From NCBI RefSeq assembly GCF_907163105.1, contig NZ_OU015321.1:2247001-2311000 (forward strand): DNA of 64,000 bases, in the 5' to 3' direction. Below the pieces are notes generated by a model. That model searched no databases. It was not told the DNA's origin and was given only the letters and a program-made list of their open reading frames with translations. This DNA is from Cloacibacterium caeni. GTDB taxonomy: Bacteria; Bacteroidota; Bacteroidia; Flavobacteriales; Weeksellaceae. The position numbers were made by a program, and so were the translations under genes. Positions 29,231-37,603 of this stretch are shown one piece after another (within the stretch, counting starts at the first letter, position 1; the number at the start of each line of letters is the position of its first letter).

Positions 29231-30118
29231 ATGAAATGGTATAAATCTTTAAGCTTTGCTTTATTGTTTTTAGTAACTCTTGCAAACGCACAATCTGCAA
29301 ACAGATTTTTTTATGAATTGACCTTTAAACCCAAAAAAGGAATAGACTCTTTACAAAAAACTGTTATGATTCTAGACGTAACCGATAAAAAATCACTTTA
29401 TAGAGATTATTTGACGGTTTCACAGGATTCTATTTTAAAAATTACAGTAGAAAAAATGCAAAAATCAGGAATTTTTCAAGATATGTCTAAAGTTATAAGG
29501 CAGCCTAAATTTTCTCACAAAATTTATAAAAGCTATCCCACAATGAAAGTTCAATATATTGATGCTGTTTTAAATGGAGGAAGACCATTGTATTTAAGCT
29601 ATTCAGAAGAGACAAAATTCAACTGGAAAATAGAAAATGAAAAGAAAAAAATAGGCGAATACGAAGCTCAAAAAGCTACCACAGAATTTGGTGGAAGAAA
29701 ATGGACGGCTTGGTTTACAGAATCTATTCCTTTCCCAGATGGTCCGTATAAATTCTCTGGTTTACCTGGATTAATAGTGAAAATAGAAGATGCTGAGAAA
29801 AATTATTCCTGGGAACTTAAAGGTAACAAAAAGATTGAAAACTATAATGAATTATCATATAGTGAACAATTAATGGCTCAATTTGGTGGCTCTTTGAAAA
29901 CTACTGACATTACTAGAGAAAAATTTGAAAAAACTCTTGCTGATTTCAAAAAAGATCCTTTTGCTAATATGAGAGATCAATTATCCCAAATTCCAGCAGA
30001 CGCTAAAATGCCTGGAACAGACAAATCTGTAAAAGACTTTATTGCAGAAAAAGAGAGAGAAACAAAAGAACTTTATGGTTCTATTGATAATTCTATTGAA
30101 ATTCTTGAGAAAAAATAA
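29231..30118 (+). CDS. GLPGLI-family exported protein
   Basis: A 295-residue protein with a 21-residue signal peptide ending at ANAQ. It carries the namesake motif FSGLPGLIVKIED at about 176-188 and the preceding AWFTESIPFPDGPYK, both hallmarks of the family. These Bacteroidetes proteins are of unknown function and are often next to TonB-dependent receptors. A terminator follows at 30149. Confidence 0.9.
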   Translation: MKWYKSLSFALLFLVTLANAQSANRFFYELTFKPKKGIDSLQKTVMILDVTDKKSLYRDYLTVSQDSILKITVEKMQKSGIFQDMSKVIRQPKFSHKIYKSYPTMKVQYIDAVLNGGRPLYLSYSEETKFNWKIENEKKKIGEYEAQKATTEFGGRKWTAWFTESIPFPDGPYKFSGLPGLIVKIEDAEKNYSWELKGNKKIENYNELSYSEQLMAQFGGSLKTTDITREKFEKTLADFKKDPFANMRDQLSQIPADAKMPGTDKSVKDFIAEKERETKELYGSIDNSIEILEKK

Positions 30119-30148
30119 AATTCCCTTCATATTAAACTTTTGTAACAG

Positions 30149-30178
30149 AAAACTCGAGGATCCGTCTTCGAGTTTTTT
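30149..30178 (+). terminator. Intrinsic terminator of the GLPGLI gene
   Basis: 9-bp stem AAAACTCGA / TCGAGTTTT with T6 at the end. It lies inside the 5' extension of the AraC reading frame, which argues against that extension being translated. Confidence 0.82.
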
Positions 30179-30226
30179 GCATTTAATAAGAGCAAGAATA
30201 GACCATTGTGCTGTGGTTTTTAGTTC

Positions 30227-30234
30227 TATATTTG
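30227..30234 (+). promoter_or_regulatory. -7 promoter element of the AraC-type regulator
   Basis: TATATTTG, with TTG 18 bp upstream (30206-30208). Supports a start at TTG 30249. Confidence 0.5.
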
Positions 30235-30248
30235 TAAAAAATAATCGT

Positions 30249-31154
30249 TTGACTTCACAAGAATATCTTGCGAGAATAAGAAAGGTTTTAGATTACATTG
30301 ACCAACATCTGGACGATGAACTTCCTCTGGAAAAACTCGCAGAAATGGGCTACTACTCACCTTTTCATTTTCATAGAATTTTCCGTGCAGTTACCCGTGA
30401 AACTTTGCTAGGTTACATCACCAGAAAACGCATGGAAAAAGCTGCCATGATGCTTTCCTTAAAAAAAGAAAAATCTTTAGAAGAGATTTTCTTGGAAATA
30501 GGATACAATAGCCATTCTACTTTTGGTAAAACTTTCAAAAAGCACTTTGGGATTTCTCCAGCTGCTTTTAGAAAAAATTCGCCAGAAAATTTTAAGAAAA
30601 TTCAAACCATTATCAGCAATATCGGACAAAAAGAAGTCGTTTTCGAGCAATATCTTTACCAACTAGAACAAATGAAATTTTTTATGGAAAATAAAGCCAA
30701 TATCCAAATAAAAGAAATGCCAGAAATGCAGATTGCATCAGTATTAAGCATTGGTGTACAAAATATAGGAAACGCTTACAACACCCTTATTTCTTGGGCA
30801 ATTTCTAAAAATATTTTCCCTAGAGAAAATGTGAAAATGATTACCGTTTATCACGATAGTTTCAAAGTTACTGCTCCCAATAAAGTGAGAATTCACGCAG
30901 GAATGTTGCTAGAAGAAGCCATCAAAAATGAAGGCGAAGTTTTCCTAGAAATTTTACCAAAAGGGAAATATATCGTTTCTCGACAAGAAATTACACTCCC
31001 CGAATTCGAAACTGCTTGGAACGCACTTTTCCTTTGGATGAACGAAAACGGACACCAGTTCAGAAAAGAATGTCCTTATGAAATTTACCATAATGATTAC
31101 CAAGAACACCCTGAGAAAAAGTGTTTGGTAGATTTCTGCATTCCTATTTTGTAA
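30249..31154 (+). CDS. AraC-family regulator with GyrI-like effector domain
   Basis: 301 residues from the TTG at 30249, which matches the usual family opening (TSQEYLARIRKVLDYIDQ) and follows the promoter and terminator just described. The frame is open back to 30042, but that part overlaps the GLPGLI gene. The N-terminal AraC domain has two HTH motifs (LEKLAEMGYYSPFHFHRIF and LEEIFLEIGYNSHSTFGKTF). The C-terminal half (about 150-301) is a GyrI-like ligand-binding domain, seen in multidrug-sensing regulators. Target genes unknown; it lacks the repeat pair that marks the three promoters downstream. Confidence 0.87.
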   Translation: MTSQEYLARIRKVLDYIDQHLDDELPLEKLAEMGYYSPFHFHRIFRAVTRETLLGYITRKRMEKAAMMLSLKKEKSLEEIFLEIGYNSHSTFGKTFKKHFGISPAAFRKNSPENFKKIQTIISNIGQKEVVFEQYLYQLEQMKFFMENKANIQIKEMPEMQIASVLSIGVQNIGNAYNTLISWAISKNIFPRENVKMITVYHDSFKVTAPNKVRIHAGMLLEEAIKNEGEVFLEILPKGKYIVSRQEITLPEFETAWNALFLWMNENGHQFRKECPYEIYHNDYQEHPEKKCLVDFCIPIL

Positions 31155-31160
31155 TTTTCT

Positions 31161-31231
31161 ACGATTCAGTTTCTATTTTTTACGATTCAGTAAAACTTAT
31201 TTCCTTTCAGAAATGAGCAGAGATACCTTTG
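31161..31231 (+). promoter_or_regulatory. LytTR-type direct repeat plus -7 element, site 1
   Basis: Two copies of ACGATTCAGT at 31161-31170 and 31182-31191 (starts 21 bp apart), then TACCTTTG at 31224-31231, 42 bp after the second start. It lies upstream of the TonB-dependent receptor gene. The same spacing recurs in sites 2 and 3. No -33 TTTG is present, which fits an activator-dependent promoter. Confidence 0.75.
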
Positions 31232-31250
31232 CTTCATCAAAAACAGAATT

Positions 31251-33467
31251 ATGAAAACTCGTATTTTTACATTACTCTTTACCTTTGCCTTTACCTTTAC
31301 CTTAATTGCTCAAATTACCATTTCTGGAAAAGTTTTAGGAAGAAATAACAAACCGCTGAAAGATGTTTCTGTGACGCTGAAAGATACTTATGATGGCGCA
31401 ACAACAGACGAAACAGGGAATTATAAATTTGAAACTTCTGAAAAAGGAAGCCAAACATTGATTTTCTCTCACCCTAAATTTATAGAAATTGAAAAATCTA
31501 TTCAAATTGAAGACAAAAACCTTATTCTAAATGCTGAACTAAAAGAATCGGTGAGCGAAATAGATGCAGTAGTCATTTCTGCGGGAAGCATAGAAGCCAG
31601 CGATAAAAAACGAGCCACTACTCTATTGACACCAATTGATGTCTACACAACAGCTGGAGCAAATGGTCAAATTTCATCGGCACTGGAAACCTTACCTGGA
31701 GTTCAAAAAGTAGGAGAATCAGAAGGTCTTTTCGTGAGAGGAGGAACCGGAACGGAAACCAAATTCTTCATGGACGGAAATTTGGTGAACAATTATTTCG
31801 GAAATTCTGTACCCGGAATTAAAGCGATGGATAGATTGAATACTTCACTTTTTAAAGGAAATGTATTTTCGAGTGGTGGTTATTCTGCAGTTTACGGACA
31901 AGCATTATCTGGAGTTTTAGCTTTGGAAAGTATCGATTTACCAGAGAGAAATGCTGCAGATTTTGGGATTTCTCCCATTTTTGCAAGCGGCGGAATTCAA
32001 CGAGTTAATCAAGAAAAAACACATTCTTACGGAATTTCTTTAGGCTATTCTAATCTAGAACTCATGCAGAAAATTCTGAAATTCAATACCGATTTCGAAA
32101 AAGCACCTAACAGTTTTGGTGGCAATGGTAATTTCAGAATTAAAACTTCAAGAGGCGGTTTTATCAAATATTACGGAAGTTATGATACCAGTTCGATGAA
32201 GCTTTCTTCTCCCAATTTAGACGACGAAACTTCTTCTGATAAAATCAATCAAAACGGGAAAAATACGTTTCACTCGCTTTCTTACCGAGAAAAATTTGGC
32301 AGATATACTTTGAATCTTGGAAGTTCATATACTTTTAACCAAAATATTCTTCATTTTTCTAATGTAGACCAAAACGGAAGTTCTCCATTCAATAATGACA
32401 TAGATTCTAAAGGCAATTATTTCAACGCCAAAGCATTGATTGAGAGAAAATTATTTAAAATTTCGGCAATAAGAGCAGGAATAGAACTGAATACAACTAA
32501 AGAAGAAACTTGGGTTTCCATCGCTCAAAAAAATTATGAATTTAGAGATGATATCACATCTCTTTTCGCAGAAACTGATTTGGGAATCAGCAATGATTTA
32601 TCTTTAAAAATAGGAGCAAGAGCAGAAAACTCTTCTTCTATCAACCACTGGAATTTTTCGCCAAGATTTGCCATGGCTTACAGAATTTCTAAAGAATGGA
32701 CGAGTTCATTGGCTTACGGAACTTTCTTCCAAAATCCTGAAAGTAGATTTTTCACCGAAAATTATCAACCCAATTATCAAAGAGCTGACCATTATATTTT
32801 TCAAGTTCAAAGAGCAGCAGATGGTAGAAGTTTGAGATTGGAAACGTATTACAAAAAATATCAAGATTTAATAAAAACCACAACAGATTTTTACAGACCT
32901 ATCGCCGTGAATAACAACGGAAGTGGCTATGCAAAAGGTGTAGAATTATTTTGGCGAGATAAAAAATCTTTGAAAAATATAGATTATTGGGTGTCTTATT
33001 CTTACCTAGATTCTAAAAGAGATTACCTGAATTACACCGAAAGTCTATTCCCCAATTTCGCGGCAAAACATACACTTTCTGTGGTGGCTAAAAAATTTGT
33101 AACCAATTGGAAAACAGGATTTAATATTTCTTACAATTACAATTCTGGAAGACCATATTACAATTTCGTGACCGAAAATGGCAATACTGTTCTCAAAAAT
33201 CAAGGCTTTGTAAAAGATTATCAAGCGGTGAATTTCAGTCTTAATTATTTACCGAATTTAGGCAAAAAAGATGCGAGAGCTTTCACCGTTTTGGTGCTTT
33301 CTATCAATAACGTTCTAGGAACTAAAAATGAATTTGGATACAATTTTTCGAGCAATGGATTAAAATCTAGAGCCATCGTTCCTCCTAACAATACTTTTGT
33401 TTTCATCGGTGCATTCATCAGTTTCGGGACTGACAGAACTCAAGAAGTCATTAATAATAACTTGTAG
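31251..33467 (+). CDS. TonB-dependent outer membrane receptor with carboxypeptidase-like domain
   Basis: A 738-residue receptor with a signal peptide ending near LIAQ. A carboxypeptidase D regulatory-like domain (about 22-95, ISGKVLGRNNKPLKDVSVTL) is followed by a plug (VGESEGLFVRGGTGTETKFFMDG) and a C-terminal barrel ending in VFIGAFISFG. No SusD-like partner is adjacent, so a glycan role is not indicated; the ligand is unknown. The promoter carries the LytTR-type repeat pair. Candidate target of the LytTR regulator at 36863. Confidence 0.92.
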   Translation: MKTRIFTLLFTFAFTFTLIAQITISGKVLGRNNKPLKDVSVTLKDTYDGATTDETGNYKFETSEKGSQTLIFSHPKFIEIEKSIQIEDKNLILNAELKESVSEIDAVVISAGSIEASDKKRATTLLTPIDVYTTAGANGQISSALETLPGVQKVGESEGLFVRGGTGTETKFFMDGNLVNNYFGNSVPGIKAMDRLNTSLFKGNVFSSGGYSAVYGQALSGVLALESIDLPERNAADFGISPIFASGGIQRVNQEKTHSYGISLGYSNLELMQKILKFNTDFEKAPNSFGGNGNFRIKTSRGGFIKYYGSYDTSSMKLSSPNLDDETSSDKINQNGKNTFHSLSYREKFGRYTLNLGSSYTFNQNILHFSNVDQNGSSPFNNDIDSKGNYFNAKALIERKLFKISAIRAGIELNTTKEETWVSIAQKNYEFRDDITSLFAETDLGISNDLSLKIGARAENSSSINHWNFSPRFAMAYRISKEWTSSLAYGTFFQNPESRFFTENYQPNYQRADHYIFQVQRAADGRSLRLETYYKKYQDLIKTTTDFYRPIAVNNNGSGYAKGVELFWRDKKSLKNIDYWVSYSYLDSKRDYLNYTESLFPNFAAKHTLSVVAKKFVTNWKTGFNISYNYNSGRPYYNFVTENGNTVLKNQGFVKDYQAVNFSLNYLPNLGKKDARAFTVLVLSINNVLGTKNEFGYNFSSNGLKSRAIVPPNNTFVFIGAFISFGTDRTQEVINNNL

Positions 33468-33493
33468 AATTAAGTCCAAAATTGACAATGAAA

Positions 33494-33564
33494 ACCATTC
33501 AGTCAAGAAAAACTACAGTTCGGTGAACTAAAATTTCAAGAAAATTTCTTTCAAAATATCTTTG
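33494..33564 (+). promoter_or_regulatory. LytTR-type direct repeat plus -7 element, site 2
   Basis: ACCATTCAGT at 33494-33503 and ACAGTTCGGT at 33515-33524 (21 bp apart), then TATCTTTG at 33557-33564, 42 bp after the second start. It lies upstream of the TPR-like gene. Confidence 0.75.
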
Positions 33565-33599
33565 AACCATAAAATTGAAACAACTAAAAAATATTACAT

Positions 33600-34256
33600 A
33601 TGAAAACTTTACAAAAAACAATTTTAGCACTTTCTTTCGCATTTACAACAAGTTACACTTTTGCCCAAACTGCTTACGAAAAAGCCATGATGCCGAAAGT
33701 TCAAACCATCGAAATGCCAAAATCTAATCCAGATGAAAACACTGCTCAAGCCAATGATTTTGCAAGAATTGGAGACAAAGAAAAAACACTTTGGCAACCG
33801 TATTATTATGCTGCTTTTTCTATTCTAAAAAAAGGAAGAACATTGATGCAACAAAACCAAATTGCACAACTAGACGAAGTCGCAAAAGAGGCTCAAAATT
33901 ACATTGACAAAGCAGAAGCGCTTTCTCCGAATAATGCAGAAATCTATATTTTGAAAAAAATGAATCACGGACTTAAAATGATGGTAAATCCTATGGAAAG
34001 ATGGCAAACTGAAGGCCAAGCTGCTCAAAATGCTCTTGCTGAAGCTAAAAAATTAGACCCAGAAAATCCTAGAATTACGATTATGGAAGCCGAAGATTTA
34101 TATTTCACTCCAGAACAATTCGGCGGAAGCAAAACGAAAGGAATTGAACTTTTTAAGAAAGCTTTAGAACAATTCAAAACTTACAAAATAAAATCTTCTC
34201 TTGACCCAAATTGGGGACAAGGTGAAGCGAATTATTTTATAGCTCAAACGAAATAG
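33600..34256 (+). CDS. Exported TPR-like protein
   Basis: A 218-residue protein with a signal peptide ending at YTFAQ (about 22-23 residues). The mature part is helical and has TPR-like stretches: AQNYIDKAEALSPNNAEIYILKKM (about 100-123) and ALAEAKKLDPENPRITIMEAEDLYF. It is likely periplasmic. No family with known function was recognised. It shares its promoter architecture with the receptor upstream and the 2TM operon downstream, so it probably works with them. Terminator at 34275. Confidence 0.7.
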   Translation: MKTLQKTILALSFAFTTSYTFAQTAYEKAMMPKVQTIEMPKSNPDENTAQANDFARIGDKEKTLWQPYYYAAFSILKKGRTLMQQNQIAQLDEVAKEAQNYIDKAEALSPNNAEIYILKKMNHGLKMMVNPMERWQTEGQAAQNALAEAKKLDPENPRITIMEAEDLYFTPEQFGGSKTKGIELFKKALEQFKTYKIKSSLDPNWGQGEANYFIAQTK

Positions 34257-34274
34257 TTTTTAAAAAACTTCTAT

Positions 34275-34303
34275 AAAACCACGAAAATTTCGTGGTTTTT
34301 TAT
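34275..34303 (+). terminator. Intrinsic terminator after the TPR-like gene
   Basis: Perfect inverted repeat AAAACCACGAAA / TTTCGTGGTTTT ending in T. Confidence 0.87.
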
Positions 34304-34345
34304 TTTCTATAGTTTTCTTTAACTAAAAAACTCAACATCCTTTTT

Positions 34346-34416
34346 ACAATTCAGTATACAAAAATGACGGTTCAGTCAAATAAAATTTGAAAGCGCCTCT
34401 TATAAAACTACCTTTA
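34346..34416 (+). promoter_or_regulatory. LytTR-type direct repeat plus promoter, site 3
   Basis: ACAATTCAGT at 34346-34355 and ACGGTTCAGT at 34367-34376 (21 bp apart), then TACCTTTA at 34409-34416, 42 bp after the second start. TTTG at 34386-34389 lies 19 bp before the -7 element. This promoter drives the operon that encodes the regulator, so it implies autoregulation. Confidence 0.75.
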
Positions 34417-34469
34417 CATCAAGAAATTTAACCCCATCACAAAATATTAATTTTTAAAATTCAAACACT

Positions 34470-34763
34470 ATGGAAACGTACAAAACAACACAAGAACAGA
34501 AACTAGAAAACGCTAGAAAGCACGTGAAAAGAATCAAGGGTTTTTACACGCATGCTTTGGTTTTCGTATTGGTAAACGTATTTATTATTTTCTCTAATGC
34601 GATTGTAGACGGAAAAGGTTTTAATGATATTGATAATTATTACACGGCTTTTTTCTGGGGTTTCGGCTTATTGGCTCATGGTTTATCGGTTTTTGGTGGT
34701 GAGCTGTTTTTAGGCAGAAACTGGGAAGAAAGAAAAATCCAAGAAATTTTAAACGAAAAATAA
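34470..34763 (+). CDS. 2TM-domain protein 1
   Basis: A 97-residue protein with the 2TM domain: an N-terminal basic motif ARKHVKRIKGFYTHAL, two hydrophobic helices (about 30-48 and 60-80) and a C-terminal NWEERKIQEILNEK. It is the first gene of an operon with a LytS kinase, two further 2TM proteins and a LytTR regulator. Both termini are predicted cytoplasmic. The function of 2TM domains is not known; their steady linkage to LytS/LytTR suggests a sensory or scaffolding role. Confidence 0.85.
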   Translation: METYKTTQEQKLENARKHVKRIKGFYTHALVFVLVNVFIIFSNAIVDGKGFNDIDNYYTAFFWGFGLLAHGLSVFGGELFLGRNWEERKIQEILNEK

Positions 34764-34786: not shown

Positions 34787-36130
34787 ATGAAACTCGAGGT
34801 AATCAAAAAAGCGGCTCTTAACCTACTCTACATCAATATTATTGTAAGTCTTTTTATCTTCTTAATTGATCCAGGAGAAAAAACATTCGAAAGATACTCT
34901 TTTACTTTCCTAATTTCTGGAATGTACACGTTTTTCATAGGTTTAGGAAACGGTTTTTTAAACGATTATCTAGATTCTAAATTCTCGTGGACAGATGAAA
35001 CGCGCAAAAGAACCATCGCTGCGATTGTAGGAACTTTGGTGATGAATATCGCACTGGTATATTTCTGTAATTACTTGAATTTCATAGTTATACAAGGCAA
35101 AAATCCAGAAAAATTTTTCAGTGGAGAGATGAACTTCATCAATTGGTTTTTCATCAATTTTGCGATTATGATATCGGCAATTGGTCACGCTCGAGGTTTT
35201 ATGGCGGCTTGGAAAAACTCTACCAAAAAAGAAGTAGTAGAACAAAAACTCATCGCCAAATCTGCCAATGCACAATTCGAAAGCTTAAAAAATCAATTAG
35301 ACCCGCATTTTTTATTCAATTCTCTGAATGTTTTAGACTCTTTAATTGAGGAAAATCCTGTTCAAGCGCAACGTTTTACCAATTCTATGTCGAAAATTTA
35401 TCGCTATGTTTTGGAACAAAAAGACAAGGAACTGGTTTCGGTGGAAGAAGAAATAGACTTTGCCAAAACCTATTGCGAACTGCTGAAAACCAGATTTGAA
35501 GATGCTGTAACCTTTGATTTCAACATTTCAGAGGAAGACAAAAAAGGTTTTGTAGTGCCACTTTCTCTGCAACTTTTGCTCGAAAATTCGATTAAACACA
35601 ATTTTGCCACTTCATCTAAACCATTGAATATCAAAATATTTACAGAAAAAGGAAACCTCATCATCGAAAATAATCTGCAAACCAGAGAATTGCCCAATAA
35701 ATCTACAGGCGTAGGTTTAGCAAACATTGTTTCGAGATATAATTTATTAACCGAAAGGAATGTCTTCGTAGAAAAATCTGAAGCTTTCTTCCGTGTGAAA
35801 CTCCCTATTTTAAAAGAAAAATTGAACCCTATGAATCCATATACTCCATCACAAGAACAATTGGCTTACGAAAAAGCCGCAAAACGCGTAGAAGAACTCA
35901 AAGGTTTCTACGGAAACTTAATTTCTTACTGCATTTTTATACCATTTTTAATTTTTATCAACTTCCAAACTTCGCCTAAATATCATTGGTTTTGGTGGCC
36001 AATGTTAGGTTGGGGAATCGGTGTAATTTCTCACGGAATTAAGACTTTCGGTATCGGAACAGATTGGGAAGAACGCCAAATCAAAAAATACATGGAAAAA
36101 GAAGAAGAAAACGCTAGAAAATGGAAATAA
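34787..36130 (+). CDS. LytS-type sensor histidine kinase fused to a 2TM domain
   Basis: 447 residues. About four N-terminal helices (10-150) form the membrane sensor. The His_kinase region has FESLKNQLDPHFLFNSLNVL, with the phospho-acceptor His near residue 176, and the ATPase region contains LQLLLENSIKHNF and STGVGLANIVSRY. An extra C-terminal domain (about 350-447) repeats the 2TM layout (AAKRVEELKGFY to DWEERQIKKYMEKE). The fusion physically ties the 2TM proteins to the kinase. The cognate regulator is the LytTR protein at 36863 in the same operon. Confidence 0.9.
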   Translation: MKLEVIKKAALNLLYINIIVSLFIFLIDPGEKTFERYSFTFLISGMYTFFIGLGNGFLNDYLDSKFSWTDETRKRTIAAIVGTLVMNIALVYFCNYLNFIVIQGKNPEKFFSGEMNFINWFFINFAIMISAIGHARGFMAAWKNSTKKEVVEQKLIAKSANAQFESLKNQLDPHFLFNSLNVLDSLIEENPVQAQRFTNSMSKIYRYVLEQKDKELVSVEEEIDFAKTYCELLKTRFEDAVTFDFNISEEDKKGFVVPLSLQLLLENSIKHNFATSSKPLNIKIFTEKGNLIIENNLQTRELPNKSTGVGLANIVSRYNLLTERNVFVEKSEAFFRVKLPILKEKLNPMNPYTPSQEQLAYEKAAKRVEELKGFYGNLISYCIFIPFLIFINFQTSPKYHWFWWPMLGWGIGVISHGIKTFGIGTDWEERQIKKYMEKEEENARKWK

Positions 36131-36132
36131 CT

Positions 36133-36429
36133 ATGGGAAATCAAGATAAATTCAACGAAATTGCTTACAAAAAGGCACAAAAAAGAGTAAAAGACATCAG
36201 AACGTATTATTACATGGTTTTGGGATATTTAGCAGTGGGTTATTTCATTGTTAGCCGAAATTATGACGGGAATCTTCTTAATATTTCTAGAAATTACAGC
36301 GTTTGGATTGTAATCTTGTGGGGAATTTTTCTTTTGGGTTACGGAATTTATTTATTCACGCCTTATTTCAGAAATTGGGAAGAAAGAAAAACCAAAGAAT
36401 TAATGGAGAAATACAAACAAAAAAATTAA
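36133..36429 (+). CDS. 2TM-domain protein 2
   Basis: About 98 residues from the ATG at 36133, 2 bp after the kinase stop; an alternative ATG at 36121 overlaps the kinase gene. It has AQKRVKDIRTYYYMVL, two helices and NWEERKTKELMEKYK. It is the most divergent of the four domains in the first helix. Translation is probably coupled to that of the kinase. Confidence 0.8.
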   Translation: MGNQDKFNEIAYKKAQKRVKDIRTYYYMVLGYLAVGYFIVSRNYDGNLLNISRNYSVWIVILWGIFLLGYGIYLFTPYFRNWEERKTKELMEKYKQKN

Positions 36430-36432
36430 AAA

Positions 36433-36744
36433 ATGGAACCTATAAACGATAAAAATATTCAATACGAAAGAGCCAGAAAAAGGGTTAAAGAAATCAAAGG
36501 TTTCTATATTCACGCTTTGGTTTATGTTTTGGTCAACTTGTTTTTAATTCTGTCTACATCCATAAAATATGATTCTTTTGAAACGTTTTTCCAGCAGAAT
36601 CAATTCTGGGGAATTGGACTTTGGGGAATTGGACTTTTTGCGCATGGTTTATCCGTTTTCTTGCCTAATTTTATCCTCGGAAAAAACTGGGAAGAAAAGA
36701 AAATTCGTGAATTGATGGAAAGAAATAGAAATTTGAAAATATGA
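36433..36744 (+). CDS. 2TM-domain protein 3
   Basis: A 103-residue protein with ARKRVKEIKGFYIHAL, two helices with a longer loop (SFETFFQQNQ), and NWEEKKIRELMERN. It is most like 2TM protein 1. It starts 3 bp after the previous gene and is part of the same operon. The 118-bp gap to the regulator contains an interspersed ATTCCG/GAATGAC repeat (about 36789-36826). Confidence 0.85.
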   Translation: MEPINDKNIQYERARKRVKEIKGFYIHALVYVLVNLFLILSTSIKYDSFETFFQQNQFWGIGLWGIGLFAHGLSVFLPNFILGKNWEEKKIRELMERNRNLKI

Positions 36745-36862: not shown

Positions 36863-37603
36863 ATGAAAGTAGTAATTATAGAAGACGAAAAACCAGCCGC
36901 TAGAAAACTCGAAAGATTAATAAGCAATTTTACTGATTTACAATTGGTTGCAACGCTCCATTCTGTGGAAGACGCTGTAGATTGGTTCAGTAAAAATGAA
37001 CATCCTAAACTGATATTTTCAGATATTGTTTTGGGCGATGGTTTGTCTTTTGATATTTTTGAAAAAGTTCCTACCAAAAGTTTCATTATTTACACCACCG
37101 CTTTTGATCAATACACGTTGAAAGCCTTCAAACTCAATTCCATAGATTATCTTCTCAAGCCAATTTCAGAAGAAGATTTAGCCAAAGCAATTGAAAAATT
37201 CAAAAGTTTTTTGCCTTCAGAAGAAACGCACAATGCTTTGGAAATGAAATCATTAATCAAAGAAGATCAACCGAAATTGTCTAGAATTTTGGTTAAAATT
37301 GGATATAATTTGAAGGTCATCAAAACTGAAGAAATTTGCTGTTTTTATTCTGAAAACAAAATTGTTTACGCACAGACTTTAGAACGCAGTTTCCCAACAG
37401 ATTTTACCTTAGATGAATTGGAAGAAGTTTTGGATGAAAAAACGTTTTTCCGTGTGAATAGACAGTTTATCATCAGTTCAGATTGTATCAAAAACATTCA
37501 TACTTCACCGAATTACAAAGTAGAATTGCAAGCGCAACCTGCCGAGGAAATTACGGTAAGTAGAGAACGTGTGAAAGATTTTAAAGATTGGCTGGTGAAA
37601 TAA
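36863..37603 (+). CDS. LytTR-family response regulator
   Basis: A 246-residue regulator. The receiver domain (1-120) has acidic residues EDE at 7-9, the phospho-acceptor Asp54 in LIFSDIVLGDG and the Lys in YLLKPI. The C-terminal LytTR domain (about 140-246) has GYNLKVIKTEEICCFYSENKIVYA and FFRVNRQFIIS. LytTR domains bind pairs of direct repeats on one face of DNA, two turns apart. Exactly such repeats occur at three promoters nearby, including that of its own operon. It is separated from 2TM protein 3 by 118 bp with no clear promoter. Confidence 0.93.
   Translation: MKVVIIEDEKPAARKLERLISNFTDLQLVATLHSVEDAVDWFSKNEHPKLIFSDIVLGDGLSFDIFEKVPTKSFIIYTTAFDQYTLKAFKLNSIDYLLKPISEEDLAKAIEKFKSFLPSEETHNALEMKSLIKEDQPKLSRILVKIGYNLKVIKTEEICCFYSENKIVYAQTLERSFPTDFTLDELEEVLDEKTFFRVNRQFIISSDCIKNIHTSPNYKVELQAQPAEEITVSRERVKDFKDWLVK

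Follow-up and report, generated by a model that had tools for sequence, protein, structure and literature searches.

LytTR response regulators such as AgrA, ComE and YpdB/BtsR consist of a receiver and a LytTR domain, and their sites are pairs of direct repeats, set about 21 bp apart just before the -35/-33 element. The repeats are 9-11 nt long with spacers of 11-13 nt (PMC4847170), and a position just upstream of the -35/-33 element is standard for these regulators (PMC4847170, PMC6193735). Autoregulation is known for ComE and other LytTR regulators (PMC6066662, PMC6193735), and YpdAB of E. coli is a nutrient-responsive LytS/LytTR pair (PMC4847170). In the LytTR Regulatory Systems (HdrRM, BrsRM) and the 'LRS-like' operons of Bacteroides, the regulator is accompanied by small membrane proteins and the repeats precede its own promoter; in the Bacteroides operons the repeats, the spacer and the distance to the promoter are 11 bp each (PMC6193735). 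The third system of relevance is Hus, by which Porphyromonas gingivalis takes up haem and porphyrin (the haemophore HusA, PG_2227, and HusB); HusA homologues have been reported in a few Porphyromonas species, in a study of that genus (PMC12106395).

The window analysed here, a stretch of 64,000 nt of a Cloacibacterium genome, resembles all three. It carries a receiver-LytTR protein encoded with small membrane proteins, repeats before the promoter of the regulator's own operon, and a TonB receptor gene beside a gene for a HusA-fold protein that matches HusA by profile and fold and keeps its binding tyrosine. It differs from AgrA, ComE and YpdB in its Bacteroidota promoter type (TAnnTTTG), its 2TM-domain partners, and its targets, a TonB receptor and a HusA-like protein. 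It differs from HdrRM and BrsRM in having a soluble response regulator, a LytS kinase of its own and the regulator gene last in the operon; the HdrRM-type arrangement, a LytTR gene without a kinase and upstream of one transmembrane inhibitor, was not found at the window operon. The hus operon of P. gingivalis also encodes HusC and HusD (PMC10100897), and LytTR control has not been described for it.

No description of the regulon itself was found in the open-access literature, where nothing specific was seen on 2TM proteins with LytTR, on LytTR in Chryseobacterium or Riemerella, on LytTR regulons of Bacteroidetes, or on LytTR with hemin in P. gingivalis. The preliminary description knew of no account of this regulon, which holds for the regulon but not for its repeat geometry, which had already been described (PMC4847170, PMC6193735). 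What is new is the content of the regulon, the receptor and the HusA-like target; what was already known is the geometry of a LytTR site. LytTR regulons of Bacteroidota are almost undescribed in the literature searched, and this one has a motif defined to the base and, in the window genome, only one candidate regulator. It is conserved beyond Cloacibacterium in other families, and one of its targets has a haemophore fold that has so far been reported from Porphyromonas. The motif is ready for tracing the same regulon in further genomes, and the functions of the unnamed receptor, the unnamed HusA-like family and the 2TM-domain proteins become directly testable.

Promoter sites in the window

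The features of the locus are as follows.

31161..31231, + strand: site 1, promoter of the TonB receptor gene; repeats 31161-31170 and 31182-31191, -7 box TACCTTTG at 31224-31231, predicted start near 31236
31251..33467, + strand: TonB-dependent receptor with a CarboxypepD_reg-like domain (domain match), HusB-like by context
33494..33564, + strand: site 2, promoter of the HusA-like gene; repeats 33494-33503 and 33515-33524, -7 box TATCTTTG at 33557-33564, predicted start near 33569
33600..34256, + strand: HusA-like secreted protein with a TPR-like fold (AlphaFold model, Foldseek, profile search of the PDB)
34346..34416, + strand: site 3, promoter of the regulator operon; repeats 34346-34355 and 34367-34376, -7 box TACCTTTA at 34409-34416, predicted start near 34421
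34470..34763, + strand: 2TM-domain protein (PF13239)
34787..36130, + strand: LytS-type histidine kinase (PF06580) with a C-terminal 2TM domain (domain match; LDPHFLFN in 80/80 relatives)
36121..36429, + strand: 2TM-domain protein (domain match)
36433..36744, + strand: 2TM-domain protein (domain match)
36863..37603, + strand: response regulator with a LytTR domain, the sole LytTR protein of the genome

The pattern ACNRTTCRGT-N11-ACNRTTCRGT was present on the + strand at 31161-31191, 33494-33524 and 34346-34376 with 0 mismatches each, and at all three sites a TAnnTTTR box follows, its first base 42 bp from the start of the second repeat. The claim of identical geometry at three promoters (pair at 21 bp, box at 42 bp) was therefore exact, and its coordinates correct. 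The 71-bp span was also said to be set in unrelated flanking sequence, and sites 1 and 3 are indeed identical at only 60/135 positions (-40 to +95, elements counted in), so that the two did not arise by recent duplication of a single promoter. Within the window the three sites were the only pair matches at ≤3 mismatches, compared with 0.26 expected from shuffles. Genome-wide (2.72 Mb, one contig), exactly three pairs were recovered at ≤2 mismatches, all in the window, and one match to a reversed control pattern, while the 71-bp composite of pair and -7 box at ≤3 mismatches returned the same three sites and 0 for the control. Base composition predicts about 0.001 exact pairs and 2e-6 exact composites per genome. 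The genome-wide search, suggested earlier as a check, thus revealed no random placement of the motif, all three matches being at promoters.

In an alignment of 106 sites, two strict copies of ACNRTTCRG(T) are followed by a spacer rich in A/T and by TAnnTTTG. A TT is conserved 22-23 bp ahead of this -7 box, as a partial -33 element, and a CA 11-12 bp after the first base of the box. This conserved CA is likely to be the transcription start, which would place the repeats at about -75 to -45. The distance from the end of the 9-bp repeat to the -33 element is 10 bp, the commonest distance between repeat and element reported in LytTR operons (PMC6193735). With two repeats of 9-11 nt, a spacer of 11-13 nt and a position just upstream of the promoter, the sites have the form of LytTR-regulated promoters, and their geometry is textbook for LytTR proteins; the original interpretation of direct repeats two helical turns apart as a LytTR binding mode agrees with the sites described for other members (PMC4847170, PMC6193735). 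A full TTTG at -33 was seen in 0/73 receptor and HusA-like promoters as against 6/37 operon promoters, among them that of the window, where it lies 23 bp ahead of the -7 box of site 3. The difference would be accounted for if the targets depend on an activator and the regulator's own promoter is leakier.

The regulator operon is ordered 2TM - LytS-2TM - 2TM - 2TM - LytTR, with site 3 at its head and the LytTR gene last. A PF06580 kinase and a receiver-LytTR protein are encoded together, as in LytS/LytTR two-component systems; the receiver motif FSDI was present in 85/85 relatives examined, and no ligand domain was recognisable in the kinase. The LytTR protein had been singled out as the nearest such regulator to the sites, and is moreover the only LytTR-domain protein in the genome.

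Conservation in Weeksellaceae

Relatives of the regulator (E up to 1e-40) were found in 126/148 Weeksellaceae genomes. The exact pair occurred in 35/148, the regulator being present in 35/35 of these, and in 0/22 of the regulator-less genomes; the reversed pattern had 0 matches in all 148. The window and 120 loci together yielded 172 pairs (≤2 mismatches), 162 of them distinct. All but six of the distinct pairs (156/162) lie upstream of receptor, HusA-like or LytS/LytTR genes, 154/156 with a -7 box at 42/43 bp; the remaining six comprise two, with a box, that precede an alpha/beta hydrolase gene, and four without a box. Over the 162 distinct sites the offset of TAnnTTT(G/A) was 42 in 108 and 43 in 48, and was rarely found elsewhere.

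Upstream regions were also scored gene by gene (pair at ≤3 mismatches, spacing 21). A pair was present for 77/88 receptors, usually 87-92 bp from the gene start, 55/81 LytS operons, 28/77 HusA-like genes, 29/30 alpha/beta hydrolases, and 46/84 cases of the separate LytTR-gene promoter in Chryseobacterium. Other ORFs had one in 8/417 cases, none with a -7 box at 42/43, and these were treated as background; other repeat spacings were mostly near zero. Where a HusA-like gene has no box of its own, its transcription may often start at the receptor or the gene may share an operon, and in Weeksellaceae loci with only a HusA-like gene, LytS and LytTR (L255-L257) one box heads the operon. In three genomes (G103, G118, G169) the receptor is unlinked from the regulator, in G103 and G118 by tens of kb, and the site is still present. 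Comparison of orthologous promoters, also suggested in the preliminary description, thus found the motif conserved and not, as its refutation would have had it, missing upstream of orthologues.

Another Cloacibacterium, G002, has lost the receptor and HusA-like genes by deletion (L262, G002:C1:719500-727500). Its receptor promoter, with both repeats and the -7 box intact, now heads the regulator operon, fused close behind the box to the first 2TM gene's leader. By this fusion the operon keeps a LytTR box in spite of the loss of the other two sites. Directly upstream of the receptor in the window (29231-31154) are genes for a GLPGLI-family protein and an AraC/GyrI-type regulator, both of which G002 retains.

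In Chryseobacterium (L097-L164), a further box lies within the operon, before its last genes and about 770 bp ahead of LytTR itself, with the -7 box at 43 bp and a TTG at -33, and so gives the regulator gene a promoter of its own. A recurring pair with 2 mismatches and no -7 box lies downstream of LytTR in some Chryseobacterium (L103:9579, L150:11398, L154:11334).

The HusA-like protein and the proposed switch

The protein encoded by the HusA-like gene had no Pfam or NCBIfam match. Its AlphaFold model (pLDDT 92) has P. gingivalis HusA as best fold match (Foldseek E 1.6e-10, TM 0.75-0.80), and a profile of 28 orthologues searched against the PDB matched HusA alone (E 4.2e-39). It had been described as a TPR-like partner, and this was right as to the fold but not as to a generic TPR protein, since profile and model make it a HusA homologue, of distant relation, whose ligand binding may differ. 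Mutation has shown that Leu123, Val124, Trp130 and Tyr164 of HusA matter for haemin (PMC6173696). When these residues were mapped by HMM alignment, the porphyrin-contact residue Tyr164 corresponded to Tyr168, invariant in 28/28 orthologues, and Trp130 to Trp135, which is aromatic in all of them (W, F or Y; F or Y in most); Leu123 and Val124 corresponded to Met128 and Val129, the Leu being replaced by Met and the Val mostly kept. The receptor sequence had no match in the PDB, and its model is poor in the plug, so that its fold matches say only 'TonB transporter'; it is a putative HusB-like protein by context. The Riemerella haemophore RhuH was considered as a counterpart and dropped, as its fold differs from that of HusA (PMC11967795).

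Relatives have the promoter of the regulon at a fourth gene as well. This gene encodes a secreted alpha/beta hydrolase, was present in 34/148 Weeksellaceae genomes (L087:4218-5134, L208-L217, L220-L249) and was not found in the window genome at the threshold used. It was first noticed through the motif, and the 30 loci counted above came from a protein search.

The most probable reading, with a probability of about 0.8, is that uptake through a HusA/HusB-like outer-membrane system is governed here by a LytS/LytTR two-component switch that activates its own expression. The kinase, in the membrane, would sense a signal, possibly helped by the 2TM proteins, and phosphorylate the LytTR regulator, two molecules of which would bind head-to-tail on the ACNRTTCRGT repeats; these cover about -75 to -45 relative to the predicted start and, being two helical turns (21 bp) apart, lie on one face of the DNA. 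From there the regulator would bring RNA polymerase to promoters whose -7 box is good and whose -33 element, in the case of the receptor and HusA-like genes, is poor, a deficiency (0/73 TTTG) consistent with activator dependence. Receptor and HusA-like binding protein would be made in greater amounts, as would the products of the regulator operon, a positive feedback, and in relatives the regulon would also take in the secreted hydrolase. We infer binding, activation and phosphorylation dependence. The comparative evidence supports the proposal, made at the outset, of an autoregulated LytTR circuit over the receptor and its partner: the sites are unique in the genome and at promoters, they follow orthologues even when these are unlinked from the regulator, and they are mostly absent where there is no adjacent LytTR gene. 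A porphyrin- or haem-like substrate is the least certain step, with even odds.

That there is no regulon, and that the repeats arose by chance or are copies of one promoter moved by recombination, has next to no probability. All sites do lie within 3.3 kb, and G002 demonstrates that promoter exchange is possible in this cluster, but chance is excluded by the shuffle expectation, the uniqueness in the genome and the absence of composite matches in the control, and copying is opposed by the unrelated flanks and by the persistence of sites at unlinked orthologues across families despite flank divergence. Both chance and simple promoter duplication were ruled out by uniqueness and conservation. 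It is also very unlikely that the repeats are bound by another regulator, such as the AraC/GyrI-type protein (30042-31154) whose gene adjoins the receptor in the window and is retained in G002, because the boxes track the LytTR orthologue, both in Weeksellaceae and across Bacteroidia, loci exist with boxes at the regulator operon alone, and the repeat geometry is of the LytTR-site type.

An improbable but better founded alternative accepts the regulon and makes LytTR a repressor, or has another factor such as Fur mainly set the promoters, with LytTR modulating. Haem-uptake genes of Riemerella are under Fur control (PMC11967795), and hus expression in P. gingivalis depends on iron/haem supply (PMC10100897). 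Repression, however, fits poorly with target promoters that have a poor -33 element, and with boxes placed upstream of the -33 and -7 elements rather than over them, the known position for LytTR activators (PMC6193735). The most serious competitor, falling a little short of even odds, concerns the substrate: with the LytTR regulon real, what the HusA-like protein binds on the receptor's behalf might be something else, for example a peptide or a different cofactor. TPR-like folds are often peptide binders (PMC6173696), most orthologues have F or Y for Trp130, Leu123 is replaced by Met, and haem uptake has no obvious use for the co-regulated alpha/beta hydrolase. A porphyrin-like ligand is favoured, on the other hand, by HusA being the only sequence match in the PDB and by retention of the binding tyrosine and groove motif.

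Distribution across Bacteroidia

HusA-like proteins were found in 67/395 Bacteroidia genomes. Among 40 loci read (L268-L307), a receptor gene was adjacent in most, and LytS/LytTR genes were also adjacent in 15. A de novo search of the distant families for 21-bp repeats with a strict TAnnTTT box found nothing, and their sites were recovered by scoring the 8-bp core with a relaxed box, the first repeat often being ACARTTCATC. Relaxed boxes with the 42/43 geometry were present at 11/15 loci with an adjacent LytTR gene versus 3/25 others (Fisher p 1e-4, without phylogenetic correction). The three loci without an adjacent LytTR gene that show box-like pairs were scored on adjacency alone; a further locus, L287, has a distant LytTR and no boxes.

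It is quite possible, though somewhat short of even odds, that TonB receptor - HusA-like - LytS - (2TM) - LytTR forms a class-wide module of Bacteroidota, in which a two-component system, and not Fur, an ECF sigma/anti-sigma pair or a hybrid sensor, would sense a porphyrin-like compound or its shortage and turn on uptake.

The proteins closest to P. gingivalis HusA (35-40% identity) were mostly encoded at loci without LytTR or boxes. Pairs of TonB receptor and HusA-like genes are widespread in Bacteroidia, and apparently fall into two types, one linked to LytTR and provided with boxes, the other resembling that of P. gingivalis and lacking them.
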